Origin: Pseudotamlana agarivorans
GTDB lineage: Bacteria; Bacteroidota; Bacteroidia; Flavobacteriales; Flavobacteriaceae
Direction of reading: 5' to 3'
Assembly: GCF_001642835.1 (NCBI RefSeq)
Contig: NZ_LXEI01000003.1
Coordinates: 1-64,000 of the forward strand
Length of the DNA: 64,000 nucleotides
This document shows positions 9,802 through 23,943 of this stretch, in pieces; position 1 is the first letter of the stretch, and each line of letters opens with the position of its first letter. Under the pieces are notes generated by a model. It did no database searches. It was not told the origin of the DNA and saw only the letters and a program-made list of their open reading frames with translations. The position numbers were made by a program, and so were the translations under genes.

Positions 9802-9804
9802 ATA

Positions 9805-11070
9805 TTATATTACAAATCCATGAGGGATAGTTGCTCCGTTTTTTATTACTACAATGCCATCTTTAATCACATAAGTGTCCGTTTCTATATCTTCTAGATG
9901 CGGTCCTCCGTTTATTCTCACATCATCTCCAATGCGGCAGTTTTTGTCAATAATGGCATTTTTTATGAAGCAGCGATCGCCAATACCCATTAATATTTCT
10001 ATTTTATTTTCTTCAATTTCCTGAAGCGTTTCATAATAGTCGCTACCCATCATATACGTTTTTATAATAGTAGTTTCCGTTCCTATTCTAGATCGAATAC
10101 CAATAACCGAGCGTTCAATTTTTGCAGCACCAATAATACAACCTTCAGCAATAACGGCTTTATCTAAGGTAGTTCCAGCAACTTTGGTTGTAGGAAGCAT
10201 ACGGGCTCTGGTGTAAATACGTTTGGTTTTATCGTATAAATCAAATTGTGGAATATCGTCTGTTAACCCAAGGTTGGCTTCAAAAAAGGAATCTATATTC
10301 CCGATATCTGTCCAGTACCCTTCATATTGAAAGCTTAGAGTTTTATGTTTTTCAATGGATTGCGGAATAATCTCTTTACCAAAATCTATAGTAGATTCGT
10401 CGGCCATTAGCTTCACCAATAAGTCTTTATTAAAAATATAAATACCCATAGAGGCTAAATAGTGACGGCCTTGTTGTTTCATTTCATCACTGACATCCGA
10501 AGTCCAATCAGGCAATAAGCTAGGGTCTGGTTTTTCAATAAACGAAGTGATAACACTTTCTTCGTTAGATTTTAAGATACCAAATCCAGGGGCGTCTTTT
10601 TCATTTACCGGAATAGTGGCAATTGAAATTTCAGCACCACTTTTTTCATGTGCTTCAATCATTTTATCGTAATCCATTTGATAAAGTTGGTCACCAGAGA
10701 GAATTAAGGCATATTCAAAATCATGTCTTAAAAAGTGGTGCATGCTTTGTCTTACGGCATCGGCAGTACCTTGAAACCAGCCTTTATTGGTTGGGGTTTG
10801 CTCTGCAGCCAATACATCCACAAAGGCACTACTAAAAAAACTAAAATGGTAGGTGTCTTTAATATGACGGTTTAAGGAAGCTGAATTAAACTGCGTTAAA
10901 ACAAAAATACGTTTGATATCGGCATTGATACAGTTTGAAATAGGGATGTCTACCAATCTGTATTTCCCAGCTATCGGTACTGCGGGTTTAGATCTTTGAT
11001 GTGTTAATGGATATAACCTAGAACCTTGTCCGCCACCTAAGATGATGGATAAAACCTTGTTGTTAATCAT
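9805..11070 (-). CDS. glgC: Glucose-1-phosphate adenylyltransferase
   Basis: A 421-residue ADP-glucose pyrophosphorylase that makes ADP-glucose for glycogen synthesis. The N-terminal nucleotidyltransferase motif GGGQGSRLYPLT starts at residue 12, followed by SKPAVPIAGKYRLVDIPISN, WFQGTADAVRQ, and FIEKPDP. The C-terminal third is a left-handed beta-helix of hexapeptide-like repeats (VIAEGCIIGAAKIERSVIGIRSRIG). This enzyme is the usual allosteric control point of the pathway. It is separated from glgA by a single base and from glgB by three, so the three are translationally coupled. Confidence 0.97.
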   Translation of the reverse strand: MINNKVLSIILGGGQGSRLYPLTHQRSKPAVPIAGKYRLVDIPISNCINADIKRIFVLTQFNSASLNRHIKDTYHFSFFSSAFVDVLAAEQTPTNKGWFQGTADAVRQSMHHFLRHDFEYALILSGDQLYQMDYDKMIEAHEKSGAEISIATIPVNEKDAPGFGILKSNEESVITSFIEKPDPSLLPDWTSDVSDEMKQQGRHYLASMGIYIFNKDLLVKLMADESTIDFGKEIIPQSIEKHKTLSFQYEGYWTDIGNIDSFFEANLGLTDDIPQFDLYDKTKRIYTRARMLPTTKVAGTTLDKAVIAEGCIIGAAKIERSVIGIRSRIGTETTIIKTYMMGSDYYETLQEIEENKIEILMGIGDRCFIKNAIIDKNCRIGDDVRINGGPHLEDIETDTYVIKDGIVVIKNGATIPHGFVI

Positions 11071-11071
11071 A

Positions 11072-12487
11072 TTAATTTAGTTTTATTAGAGAATTATATA
11101 AGTTTATGTAATCATGAGCTGAAACATCCCAAGAGTGGTCTATTTCCATGATTTTAGTTTGTATGGTTTTGTATTCTTTTTGGTCTTTATATAGTGCTAA
11201 TGCTCTTTCTATAGCCGTGAGAATGTCGGCTACACTGGTGTTATCGTGACAGATACCAAAACCACCTTCTTCGCTAATGTCGGTAACGGTATCTTTTAGT
11301 CCGCCAATGCTTCGTACCAATGGTATCGTACCATAACGTAAAGCATACATTTGATTTAAACCACAGGGCTCTACCCTAGAAGGCATTAGTAAAAAATCGG
11401 CGCCAGCATAAACAATATGCGATAATTGTTCGTCGTAACCGATATGGGCGTTAAAACGACCTTCAAATTGTGGTTTTAAAGCTTCAAGCTGATTTTGAGT
11501 TTCAGGATCCCCCGAACCTAAAAGCAGTATGGATATATCATGCTTCTCTAAAGCTTTTTTGAAAACTTCAGGGAAAAGGTCTGATCCTTTTTCATATACC
11601 AAGCGTCCTATGAAGGCAAAAAGTGGTTTTGTAGGATTCAGATTAAAACGTTCACATAGGTGACTTTTATTGGCTTTAGCTCCAGAAATTACGGTTTTAA
11701 CACCGTAGTTTTTTATTAAGTATTTATCGGTTTCAGGATTCCATTCGTGGTTATCAATACCGTTTAAAATTCCAACACATTTTTCATGTTCACTACTTAG
11801 TAAGTGCTCTAAACCGTTGGCCTGTAGTTTGAGTTCTTCCATATAGCTTGGTGACACCGTGGTTACGCCCCAAGCGCATTTTATAGCTGCCGCCAAAGGA
11901 TTTATGTTACCACCCCAATCTAACAACCCAACATGGTCGAAATTAAAAGGAGGGATTAAATTCACTTTGTCATGCGAAAACCAGCCCTGGTATTGGGCAT
12001 TATGTATGGTTAATAAATTCGGGATTTTTCTAAAGGCTTCATACTTATAACTTTCTTGTAGCATAAAGGGAATAAGCCCCGTATGGTGGTCATGGCAATG
12101 AATAATATCTGGATATATATCCCAGGTTAATATCCAATCTAAAGCCGCGATTTGAAAAGCTAAAAAGCGTTCGGTATCCGATGAAGAATACACATAGTCT
12201 TTAAATAACAGCTCAGGGATATCGATAAAAAACACATCAAAATCTAGTGGTTTTTCATCTAAAACTAAAATGTTTACAGGGTATGTGGTGTCTCCTAATA
12301 CGACGCTAGAATTATAAACGGGAGCAAAAGAATTTTCTCTTGTGAAGGCATTGTCGTAAAAGGGCATTACAACCTGCGACCTTATTTCAGATCCGTTCTG
12401 GTATTTAGGTAAAGCACCAACAACGTCTGCCAAACCTCCAACTTTAGCTATAGGATAACATTCTGCACTTATATGAATAATAGTCAT
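11072..12487 (-). CDS. glgA: Glycogen synthase (ADP-glucose, GT5)
   Basis: A 471-residue GT5 glycogen synthase that extends alpha-1,4-glucan chains from ADP-glucose. The N-terminal acceptor/donor motif KVGGLADVVGALP begins at residue 15, with a LTIHNAQYQGWF segment in the first Rossmann domain. The second domain holds PLFAFIGRLVYEKGSDL and the retaining GT motif RVEPCGLNQMYALRYGTIPLV. The length is typical. It is the first gene of the glgA-glgC-glgB operon, and a promoter box lies 45 bases upstream. No GlgP phosphorylase or debranching enzyme is visible in this window apart from the separate GH31 gene. Confidence 0.96.
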   Translation of the reverse strand: MTIIHISAECYPIAKVGGLADVVGALPKYQNGSEIRSQVVMPFYDNAFTRENSFAPVYNSSVVLGDTTYPVNILVLDEKPLDFDVFFIDIPELLFKDYVYSSSDTERFLAFQIAALDWILTWDIYPDIIHCHDHHTGLIPFMLQESYKYEAFRKIPNLLTIHNAQYQGWFSHDKVNLIPPFNFDHVGLLDWGGNINPLAAAIKCAWGVTTVSPSYMEELKLQANGLEHLLSSEHEKCVGILNGIDNHEWNPETDKYLIKNYGVKTVISGAKANKSHLCERFNLNPTKPLFAFIGRLVYEKGSDLFPEVFKKALEKHDISILLLGSGDPETQNQLEALKPQFEGRFNAHIGYDEQLSHIVYAGADFLLMPSRVEPCGLNQMYALRYGTIPLVRSIGGLKDTVTDISEEGGFGICHDNTSVADILTAIERALALYKDQKEYKTIQTKIMEIDHSWDVSAHDYINLYNSLIKLN

Positions 12488-12531
12488 TTATGAATAATTA
12501 TCATGGATATTTCGGTTCGATTATAAACTTA

Positions 12532-12539
12532 CAAAAATA
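12532..12539 (-). promoter_or_regulatory. -7 promoter box of the glg operon
   Basis: The minus strand reads TATTTTTG, an exact TAnnTTTG match, 45 bases upstream of the glgA start. Confidence 0.55.
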
Positions 12540-12880
12540 TTCATGTATAAAATGAGCTATTTTCAAATTTGTTATGAAAATTACATTTTTAAAATAATAT
12601 GTTTGTTACGTTGTTGAAATGTAGTAAAAACCACATGTCTTTTTGAGATATTTCGCTTTAAACTATAAATACTCCTTAAGTAGTTAGTGTTATTTTGTTA
12701 TAAATATTAGTCCTTTCAGGTTATTAAAACAGTATCCTTAAAAGTTTTTTTGGTGTCTAACAAAAGTTTAACGTAATTTTATTCTTACTTGTTAAAGTTT
12801 TGGGCTTACATGTTAAAATGTAATTTCCTTCAAAATTAACATGATACATTCGACATTCATTAATCAAAAAACGAACATTT
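12540..12880. other. AT-rich divergent intergenic region
   Basis: This stretch lies between the divergent glgA and small lipoprotein genes. No open frame with coding character and no RNA gene were recognised. It holds an 18-base palindrome (TTACAT and ATGTAA arms, 12806-12823) about 60 bases before the lipoprotein start, which might be an operator. No clear TAnnTTTG box was found for the plus-strand gene. Confidence 0.4.
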
Positions 12881-13129
12881 ATGAAAACATTTATTCTTGT
12901 TGGTACAGTAATCTCATCAGTTACTGTATTGGCTTGCTCGTCTGATGAAGGCGAAAAAACCCGAGGAAGTTGCACTTCCTGTGACTCTTATCAATTTCAA
13001 GGAGAAACACACCCTGCTGTAATGGTTTGTAAAAGCAAAAACGGTAATTCTATTGTAGATGGGGTTGAAATAAGGACAGATTATGATGCTTATGTCGATT
13101 CTTTAGAAAAAGTGACTAGCTGTAACTAG
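12881..13129 (+). CDS. Small cysteine-rich lipoprotein of unknown function
   Basis: An 82-residue product with a type II signal peptide ending VLAC, lipidated Cys19, followed by a serine/acidic stretch (SSDEGEK). The mature part of about 63 residues holds four further cysteines: a CTSC pair at 31 and 34, then Cys50 and Cys81, so two disulfides or a metal site are possible. No family was recognised. Similar tiny CxxC lipoproteins occur in marine Bacteroidota, but that comparison is from memory. It has its own strong terminator and no operon partner, so it is a single-gene unit. Confidence 0.7.
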   Translation: MKTFILVGTVISSVTVLACSSDEGEKTRGSCTSCDSYQFQGETHPAVMVCKSKNGNSIVDGVEIRTDYDAYVDSLEKVTSCN

Positions 13130-13166
13130 GGTTTAACTTTTTGTTGAAGAAAAAACATTTAAATTA

Positions 13167-13214
13167 AAAAACCATTTATCAAGTTAGTTTAGACTAAAAT
13201 GATAAATGGTTTTT
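13167..13214 (+). terminator. Terminator of the small lipoprotein gene
   Basis: Arms of about 15 bases (AAAACCATTTATCA type, 13167-13181 and 13200-13214) enclose an 18-base loop and end in a T run, 38 bases past the stop. Confidence 0.8.
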
Positions 13215-13218
13215 GTGA

Positions 13219-13238
13219 ATTCCTGCGAAAGCAGGAAT
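13219..13238. repeat. Short GAAA-loop palindromic repeat
   Basis: ATTCCTGC and GCAGGAAT arms enclose a GAAA tetraloop. The same type of hairpin occurs 78 bases further on in opposite sense (TTTC loop). Such palindromes are frequent interspersed elements between flavobacterial genes. Confidence 0.6.
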
Positions 13239-13315
13239 CTTATACATATTTTGTATTAAATATTCTTAATTAAAACGCAGTCAATAACTTAATGTTTAGA
13301 ACGCCTGTTAATGAG

Positions 13316-13335
13316 ATTTCTGCTTTCGCAGAAAT
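13316..13335. repeat. Short TTTC-loop palindromic repeat
   Basis: ATTTCTGC and GCAGAAAT arms with a TTTC loop abut the stop codon of the truncated lepA copy on its downstream side. It could act as the native terminator of that copy. It is the inverse of the hairpin at 13219-13238. Confidence 0.6.
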
Positions 13336-13801
13336 TTAGTCGTTCAATTTAAGAACAGCCATAAACGCTTGCTGCGGAATTTCAACATTACCAACTTGAC
13401 GCATACGTTTTTTACCTTTTTTCTGCTTTTCAAGTAATTTACGTTTACGAGAAATATCGCCACCGTAACATTTAGCTGTTACATCTTTACGCAGGGCTTT
13501 TATCGTTTCACGAGAAATAATTTTAGCACCAATAGCGGCTTGAATTGGAATATCAAATTGCTGACGCGGAATTAACTCTCTTAACTTTTCACACATTTTT
13601 CGTCCTATGGTTTGTGCGTTATCGGCGTGAATTAATGCTGAAAGCGCATCAACAGGTTGGGCGTTTAATAAGATGTATAAACGCACTAATTTTGAAACTT
13701 TCATACCTATTGGCGAATAATCAAAAGACGCGTAGCCTTTTGATACTGTTTTCAATCTATCGTAAAAATCGAATACAATTTCAGCAAGTGGCATTTCAAA
13801 T
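13336..13801 (-). pseudogene. lepA: Duplicated 3' end of lepA (truncated copy)
   Basis: This encodes the last 153 residues of LepA/EF4 (from [10 protein letters not shown] to LKLND), identical to the end of the full-length lepA at 21822-23618 except for one Asp-to-Tyr change (LDILL to LYILL). At the DNA level the copies differ at about a dozen scattered, almost entirely synonymous sites plus the last codons. Similarity stops at the stop codon on one side and near 13801 on the other. Upstream of the junction the frame runs into the C-terminus of a dead IS3 transposase (PKEYMPRFE). Lacking the GTPase and middle domains, it cannot be a working elongation factor. Confidence 0.92.
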
Positions 13802-14870
13802 CTGGGCATATATTCCTTAGGGGATTTATTACCTAAAGATTTATGCGGTTGATTAAAGTTATAGTCCTCCCTCTAGTTATCACTGATCCTTTGGGGTTGT
13901 TAGGTAGGTGTCATTGAAGTAATAAGCATCTATTATATCTTCTTAATGAAGCGATTGAAGCGTTCTATATATCCGTTTAGCATCGGTTTACTAGGTTGTG
14001 TGTATTTGATTTCTATAAAATTCCTATTGCATGAGCTCATAAAGGTCTTAGATATAAATTCTGAACCATTGTCACATCTAAATATATTTAGGTGTTCGTA
14101 TCTCTTCCTTTAAGAGCTCTAGTGTTTCAACAGCAGCTCTTGCTGGGTACGAAAGCCCTGCATCAATAGCTAGTGCTTCTCGATTACAATCGTCAATCAC
14201 ATTGAACACACGCACTTTTCTGCCATCGGTAAGGACATCGCTCATAAAATCCATGCTTCAACACTTACTGAGGCTAGAAGGTGTTTCTAAAAGTTGTTTT
14301 ACACGTTTAACCAAATGCTTTTTGTGCTTACGCCTTAAACTGAGTTTCATCTCTCGATAAACTTGCAGCACTAGTTTTCTATTCCATTGTAAGCCTTCGC
14401 GACGGATCTTATAATAATATTCATCAAAACCACTGGTCGGATATGATTCAGCAAGCTCGGTCAATTTATTTATAACTTCGCTATTATCTTTTTTACTATG
14501 GTAATACCATATCGATCTGCTAAGTCCTGCAACTTTGCAGGCGCGCATGACGGGGATAAAATATGCTTTGATGAGTTGCTTTGCACGAACTTTTTTGTCG
14601 GAAGGCTTTACTTTTTTGACAATACGTCCTTTAGCATCTTGTTATCTAGGCTCACATCTGCGTACATCAGTCTGAGCGTGTTGTTCTCGTCTTCGAGATC
14701 CTTCAGTCGTTTAAGCTGCTGCTGTTCAATACCTCCATACTTTTTCGCCAGTAATAGAACCTACTTTTGTCTATTCCTAATTCTCTCGATAGATCGCCTA
14801 CCGATCTTCCCTGTTCATTTTCCTTGTGAGCTTTTATGATCTGGCTCTCGCTAAATATGCTGTCTTTCAT
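13802..14870 (-). pseudogene. IS3-family transposase remnant (OrfA and OrfB, frameshifted)
   Basis: OrfA starts at 14870 (MKDSIFSESQIIKAHKENEQ) with a helix-turn-helix, then loses one base in an A run near 14741, so WRKSMEVL replaces the expected WRKKYGGIEQQQ; the correct continuation with its leucine-rich coiled coil follows in the next frame to about 14625. OrfB is open from 14548 to 14258 (VAGLSRSIWYYHSKKD, the HTH_21 part). The integrase core is then split by frameshifts and stops (pieces such as RVFNVIDDCNREALAIDAG are readable). The extreme C-terminus [19 protein letters not shown] is at about 13810-13865. It cannot make an active transposase. Confidence 0.85.
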
Positions 14871-14938
14871 TGTAACAGTATGAATTTAAAGTTAATAGAT
14901 TCGAATTTTTTACTGTTCTATTTTTAAGGAAACCTACA
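13802..14938 (-). mobile_element. Decayed IS3-family element
   Basis: One end is recognisable: reading on the minus strand the element begins TGTAGGTTTCC at 14938, a typical IS3-type terminus, about 70 bases before the OrfA start. The other end is missing. The transposase C-terminus runs straight into the lepA fragment near 13801 with no matching inverted repeat, so the element was cut at this junction. Confidence 0.75.
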
Positions 14939-15295
14939 CTTAAATCGAAATGAAAATCGATTCAATTTAGTATTAAATTACTATTTTCTGCATGTATTGC
15001 TCTATTGACTTTAAGCTAAGATTACATTTTGGTTCTTAAAAGATATAAATTCTTAAGTAGCCAAATGATCTTGTTATACAAACCTTGGGTTTTTATTTAT
15101 TAGTTCGAATGATTAATTCCGTTTTAATTTTGGCTTTACTAGTTTTGACAGAAACTACCTATGTGTAGTTAAGTTTGTTTTTAGTAAAGTTAGGTACTGC
15201 CAGCGATATAACATGTTTCAAGAGCTGTTAATAGTATTGAAATCCATGTCATTTTTCTCGCTATCAGGATTATTAGATTTGCAACCTAGTTGTGA

Positions 15296-15313
15296 GTAGA
15301 ATTTGTTCTACTT
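15296..15313. promoter_or_regulatory. Palindrome 1 upstream of the roadblock-like gene
   Basis: AGTAGAA and TTCTACT arms around a four-base TTTG spacer. The same half-sites recur at 15339-15354, suggesting a paired operator. Confidence 0.45.
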
Positions 15314-15338
15314 GTTTTTTGTTTCTGTGTTAAAAATG

Positions 15339-15354
15339 TAGAATAAATTCTACT
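15339..15354. promoter_or_regulatory. Palindrome 2 upstream of the roadblock-like gene
   Basis: GTAGAAT and ATTCTAC arms around AA. Its centre is 42 bases from that of the first copy, about four helical turns, and it lies about 32 bases before the -7 box. Confidence 0.45.
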
Positions 15355-15385
15355 AATACATAATGGTTTATGTTTAAATAAGATA

Positions 15386-15393
15386 TATATTTG
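15386..15393 (+). promoter_or_regulatory. -7 promoter box of the roadblock-like gene
   Basis: TATATTTG, an exact TAnnTTTG match, 31 bases before the ATG at 15425. Confidence 0.5.
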
Positions 15394-15424
15394 TTTCAAA
15401 TTATAATAAACCAAAATAATAAAC

Positions 15425-15799
15425 ATGTCAGACTTTTTAAAGCAATTCGGAGAGGATTTAAAAAACAATGTGCCAGGATTTATGGCAGTAGCAGTAACAG
15501 AAATTAAAAGTGGTATTTCGTATTTTTCGCTTTCAGCAGTTAAGGGTTTTGATCCAGAACTGGCTTCTGCTTTTAATTTAGAAGTTGTTAAAGCCAAATT
15601 AAACGCAATTAGTGCGTTGGGTATAAATGAGAAAATTGATGATATTCTTATTTCATTGAAAAATCAAATACACATAATAGATGTATCTGAAAACGCTGAA
15701 TATTTTGTCTATTTAGCAGTTGATTCTACTAAAGCAAATTTAGGAATGACAAAAGCTTTATTAAATAAATATAAGGAAGATATTAAATCTAAAATATAG
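15425..15799 (+). CDS. Roadblock/LC7-like domain protein
   Basis: A 124-residue single-domain protein. The order PGFMAVAVTEIKSGISYFS, FDPELASAFNLEVVKAKLNAI, DDILISLKNQIHIIDV, FVYLAVDSTKANLGMTKALL fits the beta-alpha-beta pattern of the roadblock/LC7 fold, especially the FDPELA...EVVKAK helix and the YLAVD...ANLG strand-helix near the end. Bacterial roadblock proteins (MglB type) often regulate small Ras-like GTPases, but no such GTPase is nearby, and stand-alone proteins of this type have no settled function. It has its own promoter and possible operators and faces away from the IS3 remnant. Confidence 0.6.
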   Translation: MSDFLKQFGEDLKNNVPGFMAVAVTEIKSGISYFSLSAVKGFDPELASAFNLEVVKAKLNAISALGINEKIDDILISLKNQIHIIDVSENAEYFVYLAVDSTKANLGMTKALLNKYKEDIKSKI

Positions 15800-15879
15800 T
15801 TATTGTATATTTTATTAAAGGAAATAAAGGCTAACTTAATTTGTTGGTCTTTATTACTCTTAAAATATAGTATATAATT

Positions 15880-16365
15880 TTATCTTCTTACCAAAGAATA
15901 ATCGTTTAGGCACATAGAGTAACAATTGTAATTACCTAAAAAATTAGATTCTTTAAAACCAAATTTTATATACAGTGCAATTGCAGGTAAATTATCTTCT
16001 GTAGTGTATAATGACAAATTGCCTGCCTTAGTTTTTGTTAAAAAGTTATAAACATGAGTAAGCATTTTATAACCTAATCCTTGACGCCTAAACAAAATAT
16101 CAGTATAAAAATAAGCTATATGCCAATCATATGCTGTATGATCATATAAGTTTTTATGCAAAACAATGATGCAAAAAGAAATAATTGTTTCTTTTTGATA
16201 ACCAACAAAAACCTTTAGTTTATTTCGATTAAAGTTATGTTTTAATTTCGAAAATGAATTAGAGATATTGTCTGTAAATTCCTCTCCTAGTAGTCCTGAT
16301 TTTAAGAGTAATGGCTCTATAGTTTTAAATTCCCCTTTTTTTAATTCAACAAAATTATTTAGCAT
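15880..16365 (-). CDS. GNAT family N-acetyltransferase
   Basis: A 161-residue GNAT protein that would transfer an acetyl group from acetyl-CoA to an unknown amine. Motif A is clear: FRRQGLGYKML with RRQGLG at residues 93-98, the pyrophosphate-binding loop. NLPAIALYIKFGFKES near residues 125-140 fits motif B. It is 37 bases downstream of the response regulator gene and on the same strand, so the two, and possibly the MFS gene before them, form one unit. The substrate is unknown; self-resistance acetylation is only one possibility. Confidence 0.8.
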   Translation of the reverse strand: MLNNFVELKKGEFKTIEPLLLKSGLLGEEFTDNISNSFSKLKHNFNRNKLKVFVGYQKETIISFCIIVLHKNLYDHTAYDWHIAYFYTDILFRRQGLGYKMLTHVYNFLTKTKAGNLSLYTTEDNLPAIALYIKFGFKESNFLGNYNCYSMCLNDYSLVRR

Positions 16366-16402
16366 TATAGATAGAAAATTTATTTAAAATTATACTTAGA
16401 AT

Positions 16403-16999
16403 TTACACTAAGCTTTTTGCAAAATAATTTGTTAATTCAATGTTGTTATTAACATTTAGCTTAATGAAAACGCGTTTCCTATAAGTTGAAATTGTTTCTT
16501 TTTTTAGATTAAGTTTCCAAACAATTTCTTTATTACTAAAACCCTTCGAGATTAAAATTGCAACTTCAAGTTCTCTTGGAGTAAGTTTTTTTAAATACAT
16601 TATAGAATTTTGGTTAATATCAGGGAAATAATCTGTATATCCGCTTGATACAAATTGAACTGCTCCGTGTAATTTTTTATCAATATCCTTTTTAGTTAAT
16701 GTGGCATGGATAAATTCTTTAATTTTAAAAAACTGAAAATAATTAATTACAGAAATTATAACAATAATTTTCATGTCAGGAAATTTCAGTTTTATTCTTT
16801 TAAAGTCATTAAAAAAATCTTCAGAGTTCATGTCAACATCCAATAACAATATGCTATTATGGTTAACCAAATTACTACTAGAAAAAACATCTTTTAGAGA
16901 TTCAAATTCTGTTATCTGAACAGTACCGTAGTTTTTTTCAATTAATATTTTCAAACCATTACGAGAAGCCCAGTAAGAATCAGTAATCAGAAAATCCAT
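16403..16999 (-). CDS. LuxR/NarL-type response regulator
   Basis: A 198-residue transcription regulator. Residues 1-120 look like a degenerate receiver domain: one acidic residue (Asp7 in LITDSYW) instead of the usual pair, phospho-acceptor candidate Asp54 in ILLLDVDMN, and Lys near 103. The C-terminal LuxR helix-turn-helix is clear: LTPRELEVAILISKGFSNKEI then ETISTYRKRVFIKLNV (about 138-185). No sensor kinase is adjacent, so it may be an orphan or atypical regulator. It lies 32 bases after the MFS gene and is a natural candidate to control the island cargo genes. Confidence 0.8.
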   Translation of the reverse strand: MDFLITDSYWASRNGLKILIEKNYGTVQITEFESLKDVFSSSNLVNHNSILLLDVDMNSEDFFNDFKRIKLKFPDMKIIVIISVINYFQFFKIKEFIHATLTKKDIDKKLHGAVQFVSSGYTDYFPDINQNSIMYLKKLTPRELEVAILISKGFSNKEIVWKLNLKKETISTYRKRVFIKLNVNNNIELTNYFAKSLV

Positions 17000-17031
17000 A
17001 TATAAATTTCACAAAGGTTTAAATAAAAATT

Positions 17032-18270
17032 CTACCCAAAAAATGATTTTATAATATGATTTTTCTTTTGTAGACTTTCCTTTTTAATATTAATAGAAAG
17101 TAAATAAGTTAAAAACATAGCTATAATACAAATTCCAAAATTCACGTACCAATTGGTTGCGTATCCAAATGTTGAAATTATTTCCATACCCGTCTTTGCA
17201 CTTAAAACATGAGCAAAACCATAACTCATCTGAAAAATAGACATAAAAAGACCTTCCTTACTTTTATGACTTCGTTTCATTACAATATCACTTGCAAACG
17301 GAAAAGTTAGCATAACACCGAAAGAAATAAAAACCATCATTAAAACCAATACGAAAGGATGATTAAAGAAACTAAGTAGTAGATAACCGATAGCCATTGA
17401 GCCTAATCCAAATGTCATGGCTACTGAACTGTGTATTTTCTTTCGCTGAATATAATTAACTAGAGGTATTTCAAAGAACATTATAAGTAAACCGTTAAAG
17501 CCTAGTAAAAGTCCACTGTAAAGTTCAGATAAATTAAAAAAATCTTTATGATAGATAGGTAATGTAGTAAAAATTTGAAAAAAGACAATTCCTGTAAGCA
17601 TTGCAATAAACCAATTTAGTAGATACAAATCATCTTTAAAAGGAGTAAATCGACTATTTTTTAAATATTCAAAATTAAGTTTATGCAATATTTTTACCTC
17701 CTTAATTAATAAAGTGAAAATTATTATTGATATAATACAACTAAGTCCGTCAATATAAAACAATAAACTATAACCAAATTGGAAAATAATTAGCCCACCC
17801 AAACTAGGTCCTACTAAAAACCCAAGATTTGTAGCAGATCTAACTAAAGCCAAGGCTTTTAAACGTTGATCTACTCCAACAAAAGAATTTAAGGTTATCA
17901 TCATGGCAGGACGATACATATCTGCAATGAATGTAAGAAGCATTATTCCTGCACACATAAAAATAAATGAAGTAATAAATTGTAGCCCAATAAAAATCAA
18001 TCCACTCCCAAAAAGACTGAAAACCATTACTTTGTATGGGCCTATTTTGTCGGAAATATTTCCACTAAAATAGGTGCCCAATAGGGATCCAATACCAAAA
18101 GAAAACATAACCCAGCCAATTTGAGTATAACTAAAACCTAAGTCATCCATTAAATATTTTGATAAAAATGGTATAACCATTGTTCCTGCTCTGTTAATAA
18201 AAGTCACAATAGCAATAAGCCAGATTTCGCGAGGTAGATTTTTAAAATTTTGTAGGTATTTTTGAAGCAT
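17032..18270 (-). CDS. MFS transporter
   Basis: A 412-residue major facilitator with about twelve transmembrane segments in two halves. The loop 2-3 signature is present as GNISDKIGPYKVM (about 69-81), and the N-terminal half resembles drug/proton antiporter members (FINRAGTMVIPFLSKYLMDDLGFSY). It would export a small molecule by proton antiport in the inner membrane. It is the first gene of the minus-strand trio MFS, regulator, GNAT, and has its own -7 box. A transporter next to an acetyltransferase and a regulator suggests an efflux/modification set, but the substrate is unknown. Confidence 0.88.
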   Translation of the reverse strand: MLQKYLQNFKNLPREIWLIAIVTFINRAGTMVIPFLSKYLMDDLGFSYTQIGWVMFSFGIGSLLGTYFSGNISDKIGPYKVMVFSLFGSGLIFIGLQFITSFIFMCAGIMLLTFIADMYRPAMMITLNSFVGVDQRLKALALVRSATNLGFLVGPSLGGLIIFQFGYSLLFYIDGLSCIISIIIFTLLIKEVKILHKLNFEYLKNSRFTPFKDDLYLLNWFIAMLTGIVFFQIFTTLPIYHKDFFNLSELYSGLLLGFNGLLIMFFEIPLVNYIQRKKIHSSVAMTFGLGSMAIGYLLLSFFNHPFVLVLMMVFISFGVMLTFPFASDIVMKRSHKSKEGLFMSIFQMSYGFAHVLSAKTGMEIISTFGYATNWYVNFGICIIAMFLTYLLSINIKKESLQKKNHIIKSFFG

Positions 18271-18286
18271 TTTTTGAAATTTTCAG

Positions 18287-18294
18287 CAAAAATA
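18287..18294 (-). promoter_or_regulatory. -7 promoter box of the MFS transporter gene
   Basis: The minus strand reads TATTTTTG (TAnnTTTG), 17 bases before the start codon at 18270. Confidence 0.55.
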
Positions 18295-18329
18295 ATTATT
18301 AAACATCACTTTAGATGTTAAAATATAAT

Positions 18330-18337
18330 TAACTTTG
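18330..18337 (+). promoter_or_regulatory. -7 promoter box of the exported Ppx/GppA-like gene
   Basis: TAACTTTG followed by C, an exact TAnnTTTG match, 54 bases before the start codon at 18392. It is back to back with the divergent MFS promoter 36 bases away. Confidence 0.55.
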
Positions 18338-18391
18338 CGAACCAATTTTAGGAGTGGTGATTTATAGCCATTTATCAAAATAAATATTGTA

Positions 18392-19474
18392 ATGTACAAA
18401 AAATCGTTTTTAAATAAGATAATAGTAACGGTGTTCTTTTTTAGCTGTTTAAGTTTAACAGCCCAAAATAAAGATTTTTATGCTGGAATGGAAATTGGAA
18501 GTAAAGGTATTAAAATGACTGTGTTAGATATTGATAACATTAAAAAAGGAAGGTATGAAATAATAGATTTTTGGACAGATAATGTTGGTATAGCTAAAGG
18601 TATTTCTATTAATGGGGAAATTAAGCAACAAGACATAGAATTAGCTGTAAAATCTATAAAAGATAATTATTTAAAAATAAAAAATGAGTTTGGTGTCATT
18701 GATGAAAATATATTTTTAGTTGGATCTTCAGGTGTTGCTATGGCAAGCAACACAGAAGATTTAATAGATATGATTGAATTTGAAATTAATAAGAAATTAT
18801 ATTTTATAGACGCTAGTGAAGAAGCTAGAATGCTTTTACGAGGCAGTATTCCTCCTGTAGATTATGAAGACTCTATGGTGTTAGATATTGGTGGGGGGAA
18901 TACAAAAGGTGGTTTTATAGATGAGATTAATGATAACCTCGTTTTTTTTCCTATTAATTTTAATTATGGAACAGTTACTTTAACTGAAGAAATATTAGAA
19001 TACCAAAAAGAGTCTCTGACAACAGCTGATTATAATGAAATACAATTTAGTTATTTGCCGAAGTTGAGACAACAAGTAAGAGATATGTATAATTCTCGAC
19101 CAAAGGCATTAGAAAAACAGAATGTTTATATGTCAGGAGGAGCCGTTTGGGCTTTTTATACTTTGTATATGAATTCAAATCCAGAAAAAAATTATAATTC
19201 ATTCAAACTAGGAGACGTAATTAGATATGATGCAATTGTTAAGAATGATTTTAGATATTTTGAAAGGTTAGCAAAACATGATAAAAATGTAGCTATAGTA
19301 TTAAAAGTTTATTCTCAAAAATATTTAATATCTGCTAGTAATTTGTTTTTAGTATGCTTAGAGGAAATTCCTAATATTGAAGAAAAAGAACTATATTTTT
19401 CAAAACAAGGACAAATAGCTTGGTTAGTGTCTTATGTGGTTGAAAATTCTAAGAAAATAAAAAAATTTTATTAA
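18392..19474 (+). CDS. Exported Ppx/GppA-like ASKHA protein
   Basis: A 360-residue protein with a Sec signal peptide (about 1-25, ending SLTAQ) followed at once by an actin-like ATPase/phosphatase domain. The phosphate-1 loop MEIGSKGIKM (33-42), the EEAR motif of Ppx/GppA enzymes in DASEEARMLL (141-149) and the phosphate-2 loop DIGGGNTKGG (165-174) are present. Departures from canonical Ppx are Glu for the loop-1 Asp, Lys for the loop-1 Asn, and Asn-Thr-Lys for Ser-Thr-Glu in loop 2. Ppx/GppA enzymes normally work on polyphosphate or pppGpp in the cytoplasm; this one should be periplasmic. It is divergent from the MFS gene. Whether it is catalytic is uncertain. Confidence 0.7.
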   Translation: MYKKSFLNKIIVTVFFFSCLSLTAQNKDFYAGMEIGSKGIKMTVLDIDNIKKGRYEIIDFWTDNVGIAKGISINGEIKQQDIELAVKSIKDNYLKIKNEFGVIDENIFLVGSSGVAMASNTEDLIDMIEFEINKKLYFIDASEEARMLLRGSIPPVDYEDSMVLDIGGGNTKGGFIDEINDNLVFFPINFNYGTVTLTEEILEYQKESLTTADYNEIQFSYLPKLRQQVRDMYNSRPKALEKQNVYMSGGAVWAFYTLYMNSNPEKNYNSFKLGDVIRYDAIVKNDFRYFERLAKHDKNVAIVLKVYSQKYLISASNLFLVCLEEIPNIEEKELYFSKQGQIAWLVSYVVENSKKIKKFY

Positions 19475-19513
19475 CACATTAAGAGGTGTTATAGAGTATT
19501 TTAAAATAAAAAA

Positions 19514-19541
19514 AGACACTATCCTGGTAACTGTATAAGTT
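19514..19541. repeat. IS256-type terminus-like sequence outside the IS
   Basis: GACACTATCCTGGTAACTG and the bases after it parallel the true IS256 terminus that begins 37 bases later (GACACTATCCCATAAAGTG), with the same GACACTATCC start and a shared AAGTTA tail. It may be the relic end of a second, related element. Confidence 0.45.
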
Positions 19542-19870
19542 AAAAATAACGACACTATCCCATAAAGTGTGTAAGTTATAAATCGAGGGTTTAACTTTTT
19601 TAAAGTTGAACCCTTTTTTCAAATATAGTTAATAACCGGCATGGATCATTTTTTAGTCGTCTCCTTTGTAGCCAAAAATACTGATTTCCTAACAGTATCG
19701 TCTGTCGGGAAGGATAACTTGTTCTTGGTGTACTTCCTGAGTTTGCCATGAAGGTTCTCTATTAGATTAGTGGTATAGATGATTTTGCGTATCTCGATGA
19801 GGAGATCAAGGAACACGGTGAGTTCCTCCCAATTGTCCCTCCAGCTTTTATCGCTCAAGAATATTTATCC

Positions 19871-19878
19871 TCTCATTT
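19871..19878. repeat. Target-site duplication of the IS1595 element, left copy
   Basis: TCTCATTT directly before the left terminus GGCGATTTCC. The identical octamer follows the right terminus at 20834-20841. Eight bases is the usual duplication of IS1595 elements. Confidence 0.9.
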
Positions 19879-20833
19879 GGCGATTTCCTAGGTAACGGCA
19901 ATTCTTCGTTCTTGTTGAATAATTCTAGTTATTAGAAGACTAAATAGATTCTCTTTACTATTATTGAACTTGAAGGCTATTTCATCTAAATAACTCTGTA
20001 AATGTTCAGGGCTTACTCGGTGATACTGACCCACAATAGCCCTTTTGATTGTTGTCCAGAAAGAATCCAATCTAGAAGTATTATATTTTCCTAATGACAT
20101 TATGTTTTTTGAATGATTGAGCTTAACATGTTTTGCATGTGTCTTATGAAGCATTCTATAAGCTCCAAACCCATCTATAACTACCTCGCTTGCAATATCA
20201 ATGTGCTTGTTTAGCAATGGTCTAATGGTTTTTGCATCAGCCTTATCAATCACTATAACCTTCACTAACCCTTCTCGCTGCATCATCCCAAGTACGGGCT
20301 TTTTGTGCTCCATTCCTCCAGGATAAATACCGAGTTTCTTTTTATAAGACTTACGCATATTAGTCATACTTCCTCCAACATAGCTCTCATCTACCTCGAC
20401 AATACCCTTTAATAGATCATCTGAATCAGAGTACATAGCTTCTCGTATGCGTTTTTGCATATACCATGCTGTATTTTTGTTAACATTAATATCACGAGCA
20501 AGTTGTAATGAAGAAATCCCTTTTTTAGCATTAACAATTAAAAATATTGCTGCAAACCATTTGGGTAATGGTAATTTTGAAGCGTGCATTACAGTGTCTA
20601 CCGTAACGCTAAAAGAACTATTACAGTCCCTGCACAAATGTCTATTTGAATTTTTTCGATTATGAATATGCATGCTTCCAGAGTGAGTGCAAACAAGCCC
20701 ATTAGGCCAACGAATAGACTCAAGGTGCTCTATACAGGCTTTCTGAGTACCAAAACGTGAGGCGATTGAAAGTACTGATTCTTGTTCCATTTATCTAAGA
20801 TATACATTTTTTGCCATATTCTAGGAAATCGCC
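19879..20833 (-). mobile_element. IS1595-family element inserted in the IS256 transposase
   Basis: A 955-bp element with inverted termini GGCGATTTCCTAG at each end and an exact 8-bp target duplication (TCTCATTT). It carries one full-length transposase gene. The clean duplication and open frame mean it inserted after the IS256 copy arrived, and fairly recently. Confidence 0.93.
19888..20790 (-). CDS. IS1595-family (ISXO2-like) transposase
   Basis: A 300-residue transposase of the ISXO2-like DDE type. The N-terminal zinc ribbon reads CTHSGS then CRDCNSSFSV, so one of the four expected cysteines is replaced by Ser. The catalytic core has VEVDESYVGG (first Asp, about residue 133), VVIDGFGAYRML (second Asp) and a C-terminal helix with HLQSYLDEIAFKFNN (candidate Glu). 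The frame fills the element almost end to end. It is probably able to transpose unless the changed ribbon cysteine matters. It would be the only intact transposase in the island. Confidence 0.92.
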   Translation of the reverse strand: MEQESVLSIASRFGTQKACIEHLESIRWPNGLVCTHSGSMHIHNRKNSNRHLCRDCNSSFSVTVDTVMHASKLPLPKWFAAIFLIVNAKKGISSLQLARDINVNKNTAWYMQKRIREAMYSDSDDLLKGIVEVDESYVGGSMTNMRKSYKKKLGIYPGGMEHKKPVLGMMQREGLVKVIVIDKADAKTIRPLLNKHIDIASEVVIDGFGAYRMLHKTHAKHVKLNHSKNIMSLGKYNTSRLDSFWTTIKRAIVGQYHRVSPEHLQSYLDEIAFKFNNSKENLFSLLITRIIQQERRIAVT

Positions 20834-20841
20834 TCTCATTT
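20834..20841. repeat. Target-site duplication of the IS1595 element, right copy
   Basis: TCTCATTT directly after the right terminus, identical to 19871-19878. Confidence 0.9.
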
Positions 20842-21740
20842 GTAGGTAAAATCTTTTAGGTGACCTCTACGGCGGCTTGTGTAGGTGCATTGAAGATGAG
20901 TTTTATATCCCGAGGTAAAGGCTTGTTTGTCTTTCCATTCTACATACCTACAGGCGTTCCTGATCTGGTGCACTATATATATCTGGATTTTGGATTCGGG
21001 AAAGACGTTTTTGATTGTATGTGTGAATCCATTCACGTTATCTGTAGCGGTGATCAGGATGTCTTCTGTACTCCTGGCGCGCATATCGGTAAGTACATTC
21101 ATCCAGAAAGCAGCCTGTTTGTTCTTTCCGAACCACAGACCCAGGACTTCTTTTCTATAGCCCTTCGCAGCCCTACGGCAATATTAAACGGTCTTATTAA
21201 CAACTTTCGAGTTCTTACGCACTACTGTCCATCCAAACAAGAAGATAAATAGGCTCTAGCTAGTCTGTTCTGTCAAGCTACGATATCTCTTGAGATCTTA
21301 TGGGGTATCCTTGATATGCCCGATGTGGAGACATCAAAGTTATAGACCTCGCGTATCTGTTCTTCGATATCGGCATTGATTATACCCTTAACATAAAGCG
21401 ACACGATCACATTCTCGATACCGTCGACCATATTGCCCCGTTTTGGCATTATCATTGGGTTGAAAGATTCATCGCGGTCTCTTGGAACCGTAATTTCCGA
21501 ATCCCCAAGAAGTACTCATCTTCTTTTTTGAATGGCCATTGCGTATATTGTTTTCTCTGGCCTTTTGATGTTTCTCGTAATCCATATGGGCATCGAACTC
21601 ACCTTTGAGCATCATTTCGATACCTCGCTTTTAAATCTGTTTTAAAAAGTTGCTGAGTTCGGCCTTAGTTTTGAACTGCTTTAAGAACTCGTACGTAAAT
21701 AACTCTTCTTTCTTCATAAGATGCAAATAATTTAAAGTTA

Positions 21741-21774
21741 AAAAAATAGCGTGGGCATGCCCACGCTATTTTTT
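21741..21774. terminator. Perfect 34-bp palindrome inside the IS256 end
   Basis: Arms of 17 bases with centre TGGGCATGCCCA and a T6 tail on both strands lie between the right terminus and the transposase start. As a transcript it is a strong terminator in either direction. It could block outside transcription into the transposase and lies just downstream of lepA on the same strand. Confidence 0.7.
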
Positions 21775-21802
21775 TTATTTACACACTTTATGGGATAGTC
21801 CT

Positions 21803-21820
21803 TATACTTTTAAAAGTATA
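21803..21820 (-). terminator. AT palindrome just past the lepA stop
   Basis: An 18-base perfect palindrome (TATACTTTTAAAAGTATA) one base beyond the lepA stop codon and one base inside from the IS256 terminus. It is too AT-rich to be a strong terminator but may be the insertion target or a weak 3' structure. Confidence 0.35.
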
Positions 21821-21821
21821 T

Positions 21822-23618
21822 TTAATCGTTAAGCTTTAAAACAGCCATAAACGCTTGTTGCGGAATTTCAACATTACCAACTTGACGCATACGTTTTTTA
21901 CCTTTTTTCTGTTTTTCAAGTAATTTACGTTTACGAGAAATATCACCACCGTAACATTTAGCTGTTACATCTTTACGCAGGGCTTTTATCGTTTCACGAG
22001 AAATAATTTTAGCACCAATTGCGGCTTGAATTGGAATATCAAATTGCTGACGCGGAATTAACTCTCTTAATTTTTCACACATTTTTCGTCCGATAGTTTG
22101 TGCATTATCGGCGTGAATTAATGCTGAAAGTGCATCAACAGGTTGGGCGTTTAATAAGATGTCTAAACGCACTAATTTTGAAACTTTCATACCTATTGGC
22201 GAATAATCAAAAGACGCGTAGCCTTTAGATACCGTTTTTAGTCTATCGTAAAAATCGAATACAATTTCAGCAAGTGGCATGTCAAAAATTAATTCAACAC
22301 GCTCTGGTGTTAAATAGGTCTGATTTATAATGTTACCACGTTTTTCGATACAAAGTGACATCACGTTACCTACAAAATCGGCTTTAGTAATTATAGTCGC
22401 TTTAATATAAGGTTCTTCTACACGGTTAACGGTAGAAGGATCTGGTAAATCGGAAGGGTTGTTTACTACAAAGGCTTCATCAGGATTTTTGTTTGTAAAC
22501 GCGTGGTAAGATACGTTGGGAACTGTTGTGATTACCGTCATATCAAACTCACGTTCTAAACGTTCTTGAATAATTTCCATGTGTAGCATTCCTAAGAAAC
22601 CACAACGGAAACCAAAACCTAAAGCCGCCGAACTTTCAGGAGCAAATACTAAAGACGCATCGTTTAGCTGCAGTTTTTCCATAGAGTTACGAAGCTCTTC
22701 GTAATCTTCGGTATCAACAGGGTAAATTCCAGCGAAAACCATTGGTTTTACATCCTCAAAACCTTCAACAATATTGGTAGTAGGTTTTGCAAAATCGGTA
22801 ATGGTATCACCAACTTTTACTTCTTTAGCAGTTTTAATACCTGTAATTAGATAACCAACATCACCTGCTTTTACACTTTGTTTGGCAACTTGAGTCAGTT
22901 TTAAAGTACCAACCTCATCGGCAAAATATTCTTTGTTGGTAGCAACGAATTTAATTTTTTGACCTTTTTTAATTTCACCATTAAAAACCCTAAAATAGGT
23001 TTCAATACCTCTAAACGTATTGTAAACCGAGTCGAAAATTAGAGCTTGTAAAGGCGCATTAGGATCACCTTTTGGCGCCGGAATACGTTCTATAATAGCC
23101 GCCAAAATATCATCAACCCCAAAACCTGTTTTTCCACTAGCATGTATCACTTCTTCAGGATCGCAGCCTAACAAATCTACGATATCGTCGGTTACTTCTT
23201 CAGGGTTTGCACTAGGTAAATCAACTTTATTAAGTACAGGGATAATTTCCAAGTCATTTTCTAAAGCTAAATACAAGTTAGAAATCGTTTGTGCTTGTAT
23301 GCTTTGAGCGGCATCAACAATAAGTAAAGCGCCTTCACAAGCAGCAATAGATCGAGAAACTTCATAAGAGAAATCGACGTGACCCGGAGTATCAATAAGG
23401 TTTAAAACGTATTTTTCACCTTGATATTCATAATCCATTTGGATGGCGTGCGACTTGATGGTAATACCACGTTCGCGCTCCAAATCCATATTGTCTAGCA
23501 ATTGATCTTGTTTCTCTCTGGCAGTTACCGAACCTGTATGATCTAATAATCGATCGGCTAAGGTACTCTTACCGTGATCTATATGTGCAATAATGCAAAA
23601 ATTTCTAATGTGCTTCAT
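21822..23618 (-). CDS. lepA: Elongation factor 4 (LepA), ribosomal back-translocating GTPase
   Basis: A 598-residue translational GTPase (E. coli LepA is 599), which acts on stalled ribosomes and in 30S assembly. The G1 loop AHIDHGKST (11-19), the G3 motif [11 protein letters not shown] and the G4 motif NKVDLP are intact. The LepA-specific C-terminal domain ends [21 protein letters not shown], rich in basic residues before it. The last 153 codons are the segment duplicated at 13336-13801. Its 3' end abuts the IS256 element, so this end may have been reshaped when the island formed, yet the protein is complete. Confidence 0.97.
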
Positions 23619-23647
23619 AAAAGAATCTAATACTTAGATTTAATTTG

Positions 23648-23655
23648 CAAATATA
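23648..23655 (-). promoter_or_regulatory. -7 promoter box of lepA
   Basis: The minus strand reads TATATTTG (TAnnTTTG) followed by C, 30 bases upstream of the lepA start. Confidence 0.6.
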
Positions 23656-23935
23656 GACGTTTTATCGGTTTATATCTATTGTTTTTATTAGCATCCTTGG
23701 GCTTGTTTAATCGTCTTATTTTTATGAATGTTTAAAATGGGGTATGAAAAGGGTTTTAAGTCGTGTTTAATAGATTACATGCATAATACTGTACCTGCTG
23801 TTGTTTGTAATGTTTTGTAAATAAGAGCTTTAGTTTTTAAGTGGTTTTGATGATAAATGAAGGTTTTTATGCTTTAAAAAGGTGATTTTATGAATTTCAT
23901 GGCTGTGAAATTCCTCAGTTTTAAGTAAAAAGCCG

Positions 23936-23943
23936 TAATTTTG
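23936..23943 (+). promoter_or_regulatory. -7 promoter box of dusB
   Basis: TAATTTTG followed by C, an exact TAnnTTTG match, 18 bases before the GTG at 23962. It decides the start, since codons upstream of about 23950 would not be transcribed. Confidence 0.6.

Follow-up and report, generated by a model that had tools for sequence, protein, structure and literature searches.

Introduction

Foreign DNA that enters a bacterial gene can leave a second copy of part of that gene behind, and several such cases have been described. Homology-facilitated illegitimate recombination is known from Streptococcus pneumoniae, Acinetobacter baylyi and Pseudomonas stutzeri; in the sections of the source used here, microhomologies of 3-10 bp are usual and inserts average 1 kb (PMC3240628). 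In Vibrio cholerae, the ends of effector and immunity genes of the type VI secretion system (T6SS) were displaced stepwise, for which the authors, in the part cited here, propose the same mechanism (PMC5361080). Prophage e14 at icd of Escherichia coli K-12 brings a duplication of 165 bp; its 12 changes include two conservative Glu/Asp replacements and leave the frame intact, as far as the cited portions describe it (PMC11148124, PMC6379469). Merodiploids formed by transformation of S. pneumoniae carry tandem duplications of ~100-900 kb attributed to unequal crossing-over in the excerpted account (PMC3784515). Here we describe a locus of Pseudotamlana agarivorans at which the 3' end of lepA occurs twice, once in a complete gene and once as a truncated copy (the stub), with an island of unrelated genes between the two. 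The window, that is the whole analysed stretch of 64,000 nucleotides, corresponds to bases 1-64000 of contig C22 (302 kb) in a genome of 3.83 Mb and 50 contigs. With moderate confidence we favour the reading that homologous recombination in lepA at one end, combined with joining by microhomology at the other, brought the island in, as in homology-facilitated illegitimate recombination.

Results

A displaced and a probably imported lepA end

A repeat search and an ungapped comparison revealed that the two lepA ends lie in the same orientation at a constant offset of 8486 and are identical at 444 of 466 bases. A preliminary description of this DNA had reported both ends and their orientation correctly; its count of 153 codons has to be corrected to 154 codons plus the stop. 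When the own genome was searched with the lepA end at the DNA level, these two ends were returned together with chance matches of 25 and 32 bases.

The sequence around the stub was compared with that of congeners (G001-G005; other G numbers denote further genomes of the family). In the last 30 nt of lepA, the stub shows no difference from G003 or G004, and it is followed by the sequence that also lies downstream of lepA in these two genomes. Across the 466 positions, 14 differ between the stub and G003. The end of the complete gene shows 22 differences from the stub, 26 from G003, 32 from G004 and 49 from G002; both its final 18 bases and the adjoining spacer depart from the native sequence. 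Within its last 30 nt there are 6 changes, none common to the stub, G003 or G004. Over all 1797 nt, the complete gene differs from agreeing G003 and G004 sequences at 37 sites, 6 of which fall into these last 30 nt (binomial p 3e-5 for the clustering, with the 30-nt span picked after looking). In a tree of the first 1331 nt of lepA, G003 is the partner of the complete gene (support 89/87). The tree of the tail instead joins G003 with the stub (85/86) and leaves the tail of the complete gene outside this pair, with moderate support.

Because it runs on without a break into ancestral downstream DNA and groups with the lepA end of G003, the stub appears to be the original lepA end, and the direction of the event can be read. 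The end of the complete gene, or at least its last 18 nt together with the 20-nt palindromic spacer, seems to be imported with the island, since its tail lies outside the stub/G003 pair and the last 18 bases and the spacer are non-native. The donor would have been a close relative, as the imported end is nearer to the group of the stub, G003 and G004 than to G002. The preliminary description had offered that the gene's end was either restored by the event or left over from it. Downstream sequence and tail tree indicate that both apply, to different copies: the stub was left over and the end of the complete gene was brought in.

The 22 differences between the two ends are located at codon position 3 (18) and position 1 (4), and 16 of the 18 differing codons are synonymous, which suggests that the ends diverged mainly as parts of working genes. 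The two remaining codons are an E/D difference at codon 446, adjoining the junction, and D486Y in the stub. Codon 446 encodes D in 35, E in 19 and N in 1 of 55 sequences in which the residue was located, and the E/D difference is thus unremarkable. Residue 486 is Asp in 61/61 sequences located by motif, out of 76 LepA sequences read.

A tandem duplication of the lepA end within this genome, with cargo inserted later between the copies and divergence by mutation, was considered as well. Genome G363, of another genus, shows that a lepA end and the next gene can duplicate in tandem. We regard this origin as highly unlikely here, however: a free copy should gain changes at all codon positions, yet the differing codons are mostly synonymous; in the tail tree the partner of the stub is G003 instead of the complete gene (moderate support); and the 6 changes in the last 30 nt of the complete gene are absent from the stub, G003 and G004. 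The variant with neutral decay of an internal duplicate was rejected on the synonymous bias and the tail topology.

The empty site in congeners

A DNA search with the truncated lepA end matched 39 of 40 genomes, the own genome being included in the 40. Among the 39 other genomes, 38 hold one lepA end and G010 none; G003 adds a 32-nt chance match. All five congeners (5/5) have one lepA end. Window positions 13820-19500 were searched in six genomes of the genus and were held by the own genome only, with two short IS3 pieces in G001 (IS, insertion sequence). In G004 we found the empty site: its sequence follows window positions 9000-13242 and, after a short indel, continues with 13328-13800 and the rest of lepA. 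G003 matches the window from 12736 on; further out, its gene order differs. The empty site in G004, together with a single lepA end and no cargo in 5/5 congeners, supports the insertion of foreign DNA at lepA and bears out the preliminary description, which had suggested this comparison. A second lepA end in relatives without the island, or the cargo at the same place beside a single lepA end, had been named there as contrary evidence; each was seen in 0/5 congeners.

With a draft genome of 50 contigs, an assembly artefact has to be considered. We find it scarcely credible, since C22 runs through the island, no second copy of the island exists in the genome except for short matches of 36 and 43 bases, and completeness and contamination are reported as 99.96 and 0.42.

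The junction between IS3 and lepA

Both borders of the island can be located. On the stub side, the window exits the IS3 sequence at TTTGA and continues as lepA TTTGAAATGCC. In G056 and G095, relatives of the IS3 element have another 86 bases between TTTGA and their ends, which places the junction inside the element and makes it an apparent internal break and no transposition end. The base following TTTGA is T in the IS copies of G056 and G095 and A in congener lepA. The border thus carries 5 bp of microhomology, within the range of about 3-10 bp. When a stretch of the G056 locus was joined at random to G003 lepA, at least 5 bp were shared in 0.7% of 200,000 trials. The corresponding position in G056 belongs to the left arm of a palindrome close to the end of the IS. 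The alignment of breakpoints proposed in the preliminary description therefore fixed the IS3/lepA junction, whereas the homologous crossover in lepA left no visible breakpoint.

The two IS elements at the borders are damaged. The IS3 transposase gene is out of frame relative to a 303-aa relative and contains a stop, and the IS256 transposase gene is in pieces. Beyond the junction base, the stub has three private changes against G003 and G004, one of them Asp486 to Tyr. As both transposase genes are broken while the stub has few private changes, the IS elements were probably already broken before they arrived here, although this comparison is qualitative. Such a history would speak against the IS elements having moved the block in.

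IS elements do lie at both borders, and a composite or otherwise IS-mediated insertion, in which they carried the block to lepA, was considered. We consider it very improbable. The border elements belong to different families (IS3 and IS256), the IS3 end is missing at the junction, no target duplication was seen beside IS256, neither border element has an intact transposase gene in spite of the few private changes of the stub, and IS transposition alone yields no second lepA end. A composite transposon in the strict sense, with two related IS elements, intact outer ends and a target duplication, was rejected, because the border elements come from different families and the outer end of IS3 is missing.

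A likely route of entry

We suggest the following course. DNA from a close relative, with the cargo and already decaying IS elements downstream of lepA, would have entered the lineage. Homologous recombination inside lepA at one end would have produced a complete gene with a native 5' part and a donor 3' part. At the other end, the broken IS3-family gene would have been joined through the 5 bp TTTGA to codon 445 of the resident lepA, leaving the original last 154 codons and their own downstream sequence behind as the stub. Any resident DNA lost between the joints would lie in lepA upstream of codon 445 and would have been replaced by donor lepA. From this arrangement we infer a single event with linear DNA, as well as the donor and a homologous crossover placed within lepA. 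One probably homologous border, one border with microhomology and the lack of a recombinase among the scanned ORFs (open reading frames) fit homology-facilitated illegitimate recombination. The preliminary description had treated homologous, IS-mediated and site-specific joining as about equally likely; homologous plus illegitimate joining is now favoured, and IS transposition is disfavoured by the missing IS3 end.

Several points weigh against this course. In the tail tree no fork is starred, and the fork that holds the complete gene, G004, the stub and G003 (92/95) is drawn open. That the complete lepA is a hybrid is suggested by the topologies of the two trees and by the last 30 nt, with no crossover breakpoint to be seen. 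The microhomology was read from IS3 relatives and congener lepA, among which the donor IS3 copy is not included. At ~8 kb the insert is far above the 1 kb average given for such events in the part of the source used (PMC3240628). Finally, no recombinase was found among nine island ORFs scanned against Pfam, while 8 of the 17 island ORFs of at least 60 aa stood outside that scan (the stub, mostly antisense or overlapping ORFs, and one IS256 piece); tyrosine recombinases (PF00589) gave 10 matches in the genome and none on C22, with no genome-wide search for serine recombinases. Within this scope, the earlier statement that the island shows no integrase or recombinase gene holds.

A single crossover of the Campbell type, between resident lepA and a circle in which the cargo was accompanied by an IS3 fragment already joined to a 5'-truncated lepA end, would give the same order of parts and nearly the same look. 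Single crossover of circularised DNA is also reported to be a main fate of incoming linear DNA in E. coli, according to the passages cited (PMC3240628). The 5' part of the stub would then derive from the donor and only its 3' part would be native. Near its 5' end, however, the stub carries the G003 alleles at lepA positions 1378, 1386 and 1392, where the complete gene carries those of G004. These alleles suggest that the stub is native from near its start and are mildly against a single crossover. Moreover, no plasmid record matches the island DNA. We regard a single crossover as possible but rather doubtful.

Recurrence at lepA in the genus and family

We searched 397 genomes of the family for LepA ends at a threshold of E 1e-10 or better. 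A match was obtained in 385 of them, and four, including the own genome, had two matches. In G363 (L172:6379-12479), the lepA 3' end and the next gene are present as a tandem copy, 83% identical over 1483 bases, and the second lepA end is decayed and carries stops. In G157, a lepA end of 88 aa borders the end of contig C13 (L173:9631-9895), and the complete lepA is on contig C19; this end could be another displaced end or contamination. G349 looks like one lepA gene split over two contigs. Thus none of the three other genomes with doubled ends was shown to hold such an island, G157 being ambiguous, and lepA-flanked islands with other cargo, which the preliminary description had proposed to look for, did not emerge from the family. 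Literature searches on genomic islands at lepA, partly judged by title, found no paper on the subject among those listed.

These results also bear on the possibility that the island is what remains of an integrative element whose integrase gene was lost. Such an element would insert into lepA near codon 445 and bring along a substitute for its last 154 codons. The anatomy is that of e14 at icd: the gene end is restored by an imported copy and the native end is displaced, here over 466 bp with 22 changes and the E/D difference at the junction. An integrase gene at one end, the hallmark of elements of the e14 class, was found neither in the nine scanned ORFs nor with PF00589 on C22. The far border of the island lies inside a broken IS3 gene, and a second such island was not found among the few doubled lepA ends of the family, with G157 ambiguous. 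We therefore judge this origin quite unlikely.

Within the genus, the lepA end and the adjoining gene vary together. One type of end is shared by the stub, G003, G004 and G005; the other, in G001 and G002, comes with an extra small lipoprotein-like gene next to lepA; and the lepA end of the island has a third downstream sequence. Since G002 and G005 are sisters in the tree of the 5' part (99/98), yet have different lepA ends, exchange anchored in lepA may have happened more than once among these few genomes. As a tentative suggestion, genes downstream of lepA might have been acquired repeatedly in this genus at the gene's 3' end, through ordinary recombination with conserved lepA as the anchor and no integrase involved.

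Cargo and neighbouring features

The coordinates of all features are summarized in Table 1. The content between the lepA copies agrees with the preliminary description, which had named IS remnants and five non-core genes: we found five non-IS ORFs and, by family matches, three IS elements (IS3, IS256/Mutator and IS1595 families). On the + strand, the stub is followed by the IS3 remnant, the 124-aa ORF, the GNAT, LuxR-type, MFS and Ppx/GppA-like genes, and the IS256/Mutator element with IS1595 inside.

Table 1. Features of the lepA locus (positions in the window)
Feature	Position	Strand	Remarks
82-aa ORF	12881..13129	+	ancestral lepA neighbour in G003 and G004
Truncated lepA end (stub)	13336..13801	-	154 codons + stop; apparently the original 3' end, runs on into ancestral downstream sequence
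TTTGA microhomology, 5 bp	13796..13800	-	common to IS3 relatives and lepA at the putative illegitimate junction
IS3-family remnant	13796..14938	-	5' end preserved, lacks the final 86 bases; reading frame disrupted
Cargo ORF, 124 aa	15425..15799	+	no Pfam, NCBIfam, PHROGs or PADLOC match
Cargo ORF, GNAT acetyltransferase	15880..16365	-	family match
Cargo ORF, LuxR-type regulator	16403..16999	-	family match
Cargo ORF, MFS transporter	17032..18270	-	family match
Cargo ORF, Ppx/GppA-like protein	18392..19474	+	family match; apparent N-terminal signal sequence, judged by eye
Decayed IS256/Mutator-family element	19551..21801	-	bounded by inverted repeats, without visible target duplication
IS1595-family element	19880..20832	-	nested in IS256 remnant; CTCTCATTTG on both sides; 300-aa transposase ORF
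Palindromic AT-rich spacer, 20 nt	21802..21821	.	behind complete lepA; unlike native downstream sequence of G003/G004
Complete lepA	21822..23618	-	598 aa; 5' part apparently native, 3' tail apparently imported (at least the last 18 nt)

The cargo genes are AT-rich: in 1-kb bins, the GC content is 25-28% in the four bins of 15-19 kb and 31-41% elsewhere between 9 and 28 kb. When the 396 other genomes of the family were searched with the Ppx/GppA-like protein, a single strong relative came up (G335, 43%, E 1e-87), and at most 35 further genomes gave weak matches. Within 20 kb examined around the G335 relative, none of the other four cargo genes was found. The best relatives of the MFS protein reach 46-47% identity, and nine of their loci (~4.2 kb each) held no other cargo gene. 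Hence the cargo is not a known conserved set. By family names alone, it could be a small regulated transport unit. The Ppx/GppA family is normally cytoplasmic, and an exported member would be odd; the putative signal peptide was judged by eye.

Other sources of the cargo were examined. With the 1.3 kb of DNA around the Ppx-like gene as query, 51 of the 396 other genomes of the family were matched, over short stretches only (23-73 nt). A phage or defence island was rejected: the five cargo proteins gave generic PHROGs matches only (acetyltransferase, sigma/helix-turn-helix and one MFS-like family of unknown function), and PADLOC gave just weak matches, to the helix-turn-helix part of one cargo protein. 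A plasmid source was likewise rejected on the plasmid records mentioned above; the Ppx-like protein matched six such records, five of them listed at 24-27% identity. No relatives of this protein were confirmed in viral contigs. Insertion at a tRNA gene was discarded, as no tRNA was found within the window.

Two observations concern the flanks. Between the 82-aa ORF and the stub, a stretch of ~90 bases (13243-13330), flanked by inverted 26-nt arms, is missing from G003 and G004. Pieces of its arms (25-41 nt) recur at four other places of the genome, and the stretch may be a small dispersed hairpin repeat. On the other side, positions 23619-23940 comprise only ~320 bases, where G003 has a 937-aa ORF beside lepA (L034:11994-14807); the gene on the far side of that ORF from lepA we take to be dusB-like.

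Discussion

Many acquired blocks without an integrase hold no clue to their entry. Here, the joints, the empty site, and a displaced and an apparently imported end are readable. The case illustrates that unrelated genes can be gained through a housekeeping gene that serves as the anchor and whose product stays almost unchanged, and displaced stubs at the ends of conserved genes could be used to measure how frequent this route is.

Each described system shares part of this anatomy, as far as the cited sections extend. The merodiploids of S. pneumoniae resemble the locus in having partial duplications beside partial IS copies, there through transformation. Unlike the island, they are tandem and without new cargo (PMC3784515). 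Prophage e14 likewise replaces the 3' end of icd by a near-synonymous imported copy and displaces the original to the far side. It integrates site-specifically, however, whereas at lepA no integrase was found within the scans described and one border is a broken IS gene (PMC11148124, PMC6379469). In the V. cholerae T6SS loci, too, incoming DNA is anchored by a conserved upstream part of the gene, and the older downstream part stays behind; what is displaced there is an immunity gene thought to be useful, as opposed to the end of a housekeeping gene, with no obvious use, at lepA (PMC5361080). On our reading, homology-facilitated illegitimate recombination would share one homologous border, a second border made by short microhomology and independence from an integrase. 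It differs in that our case is deduced from one genome and not observed, that the insert is ~8 kb compared with 1 kb, and that resident DNA seems to have been mostly kept here and is deleted there (PMC3240628). In summary, the event is of a known kind and unusually readable, and it looks like an instance of a known route of DNA uptake that works without a dedicated integration enzyme.

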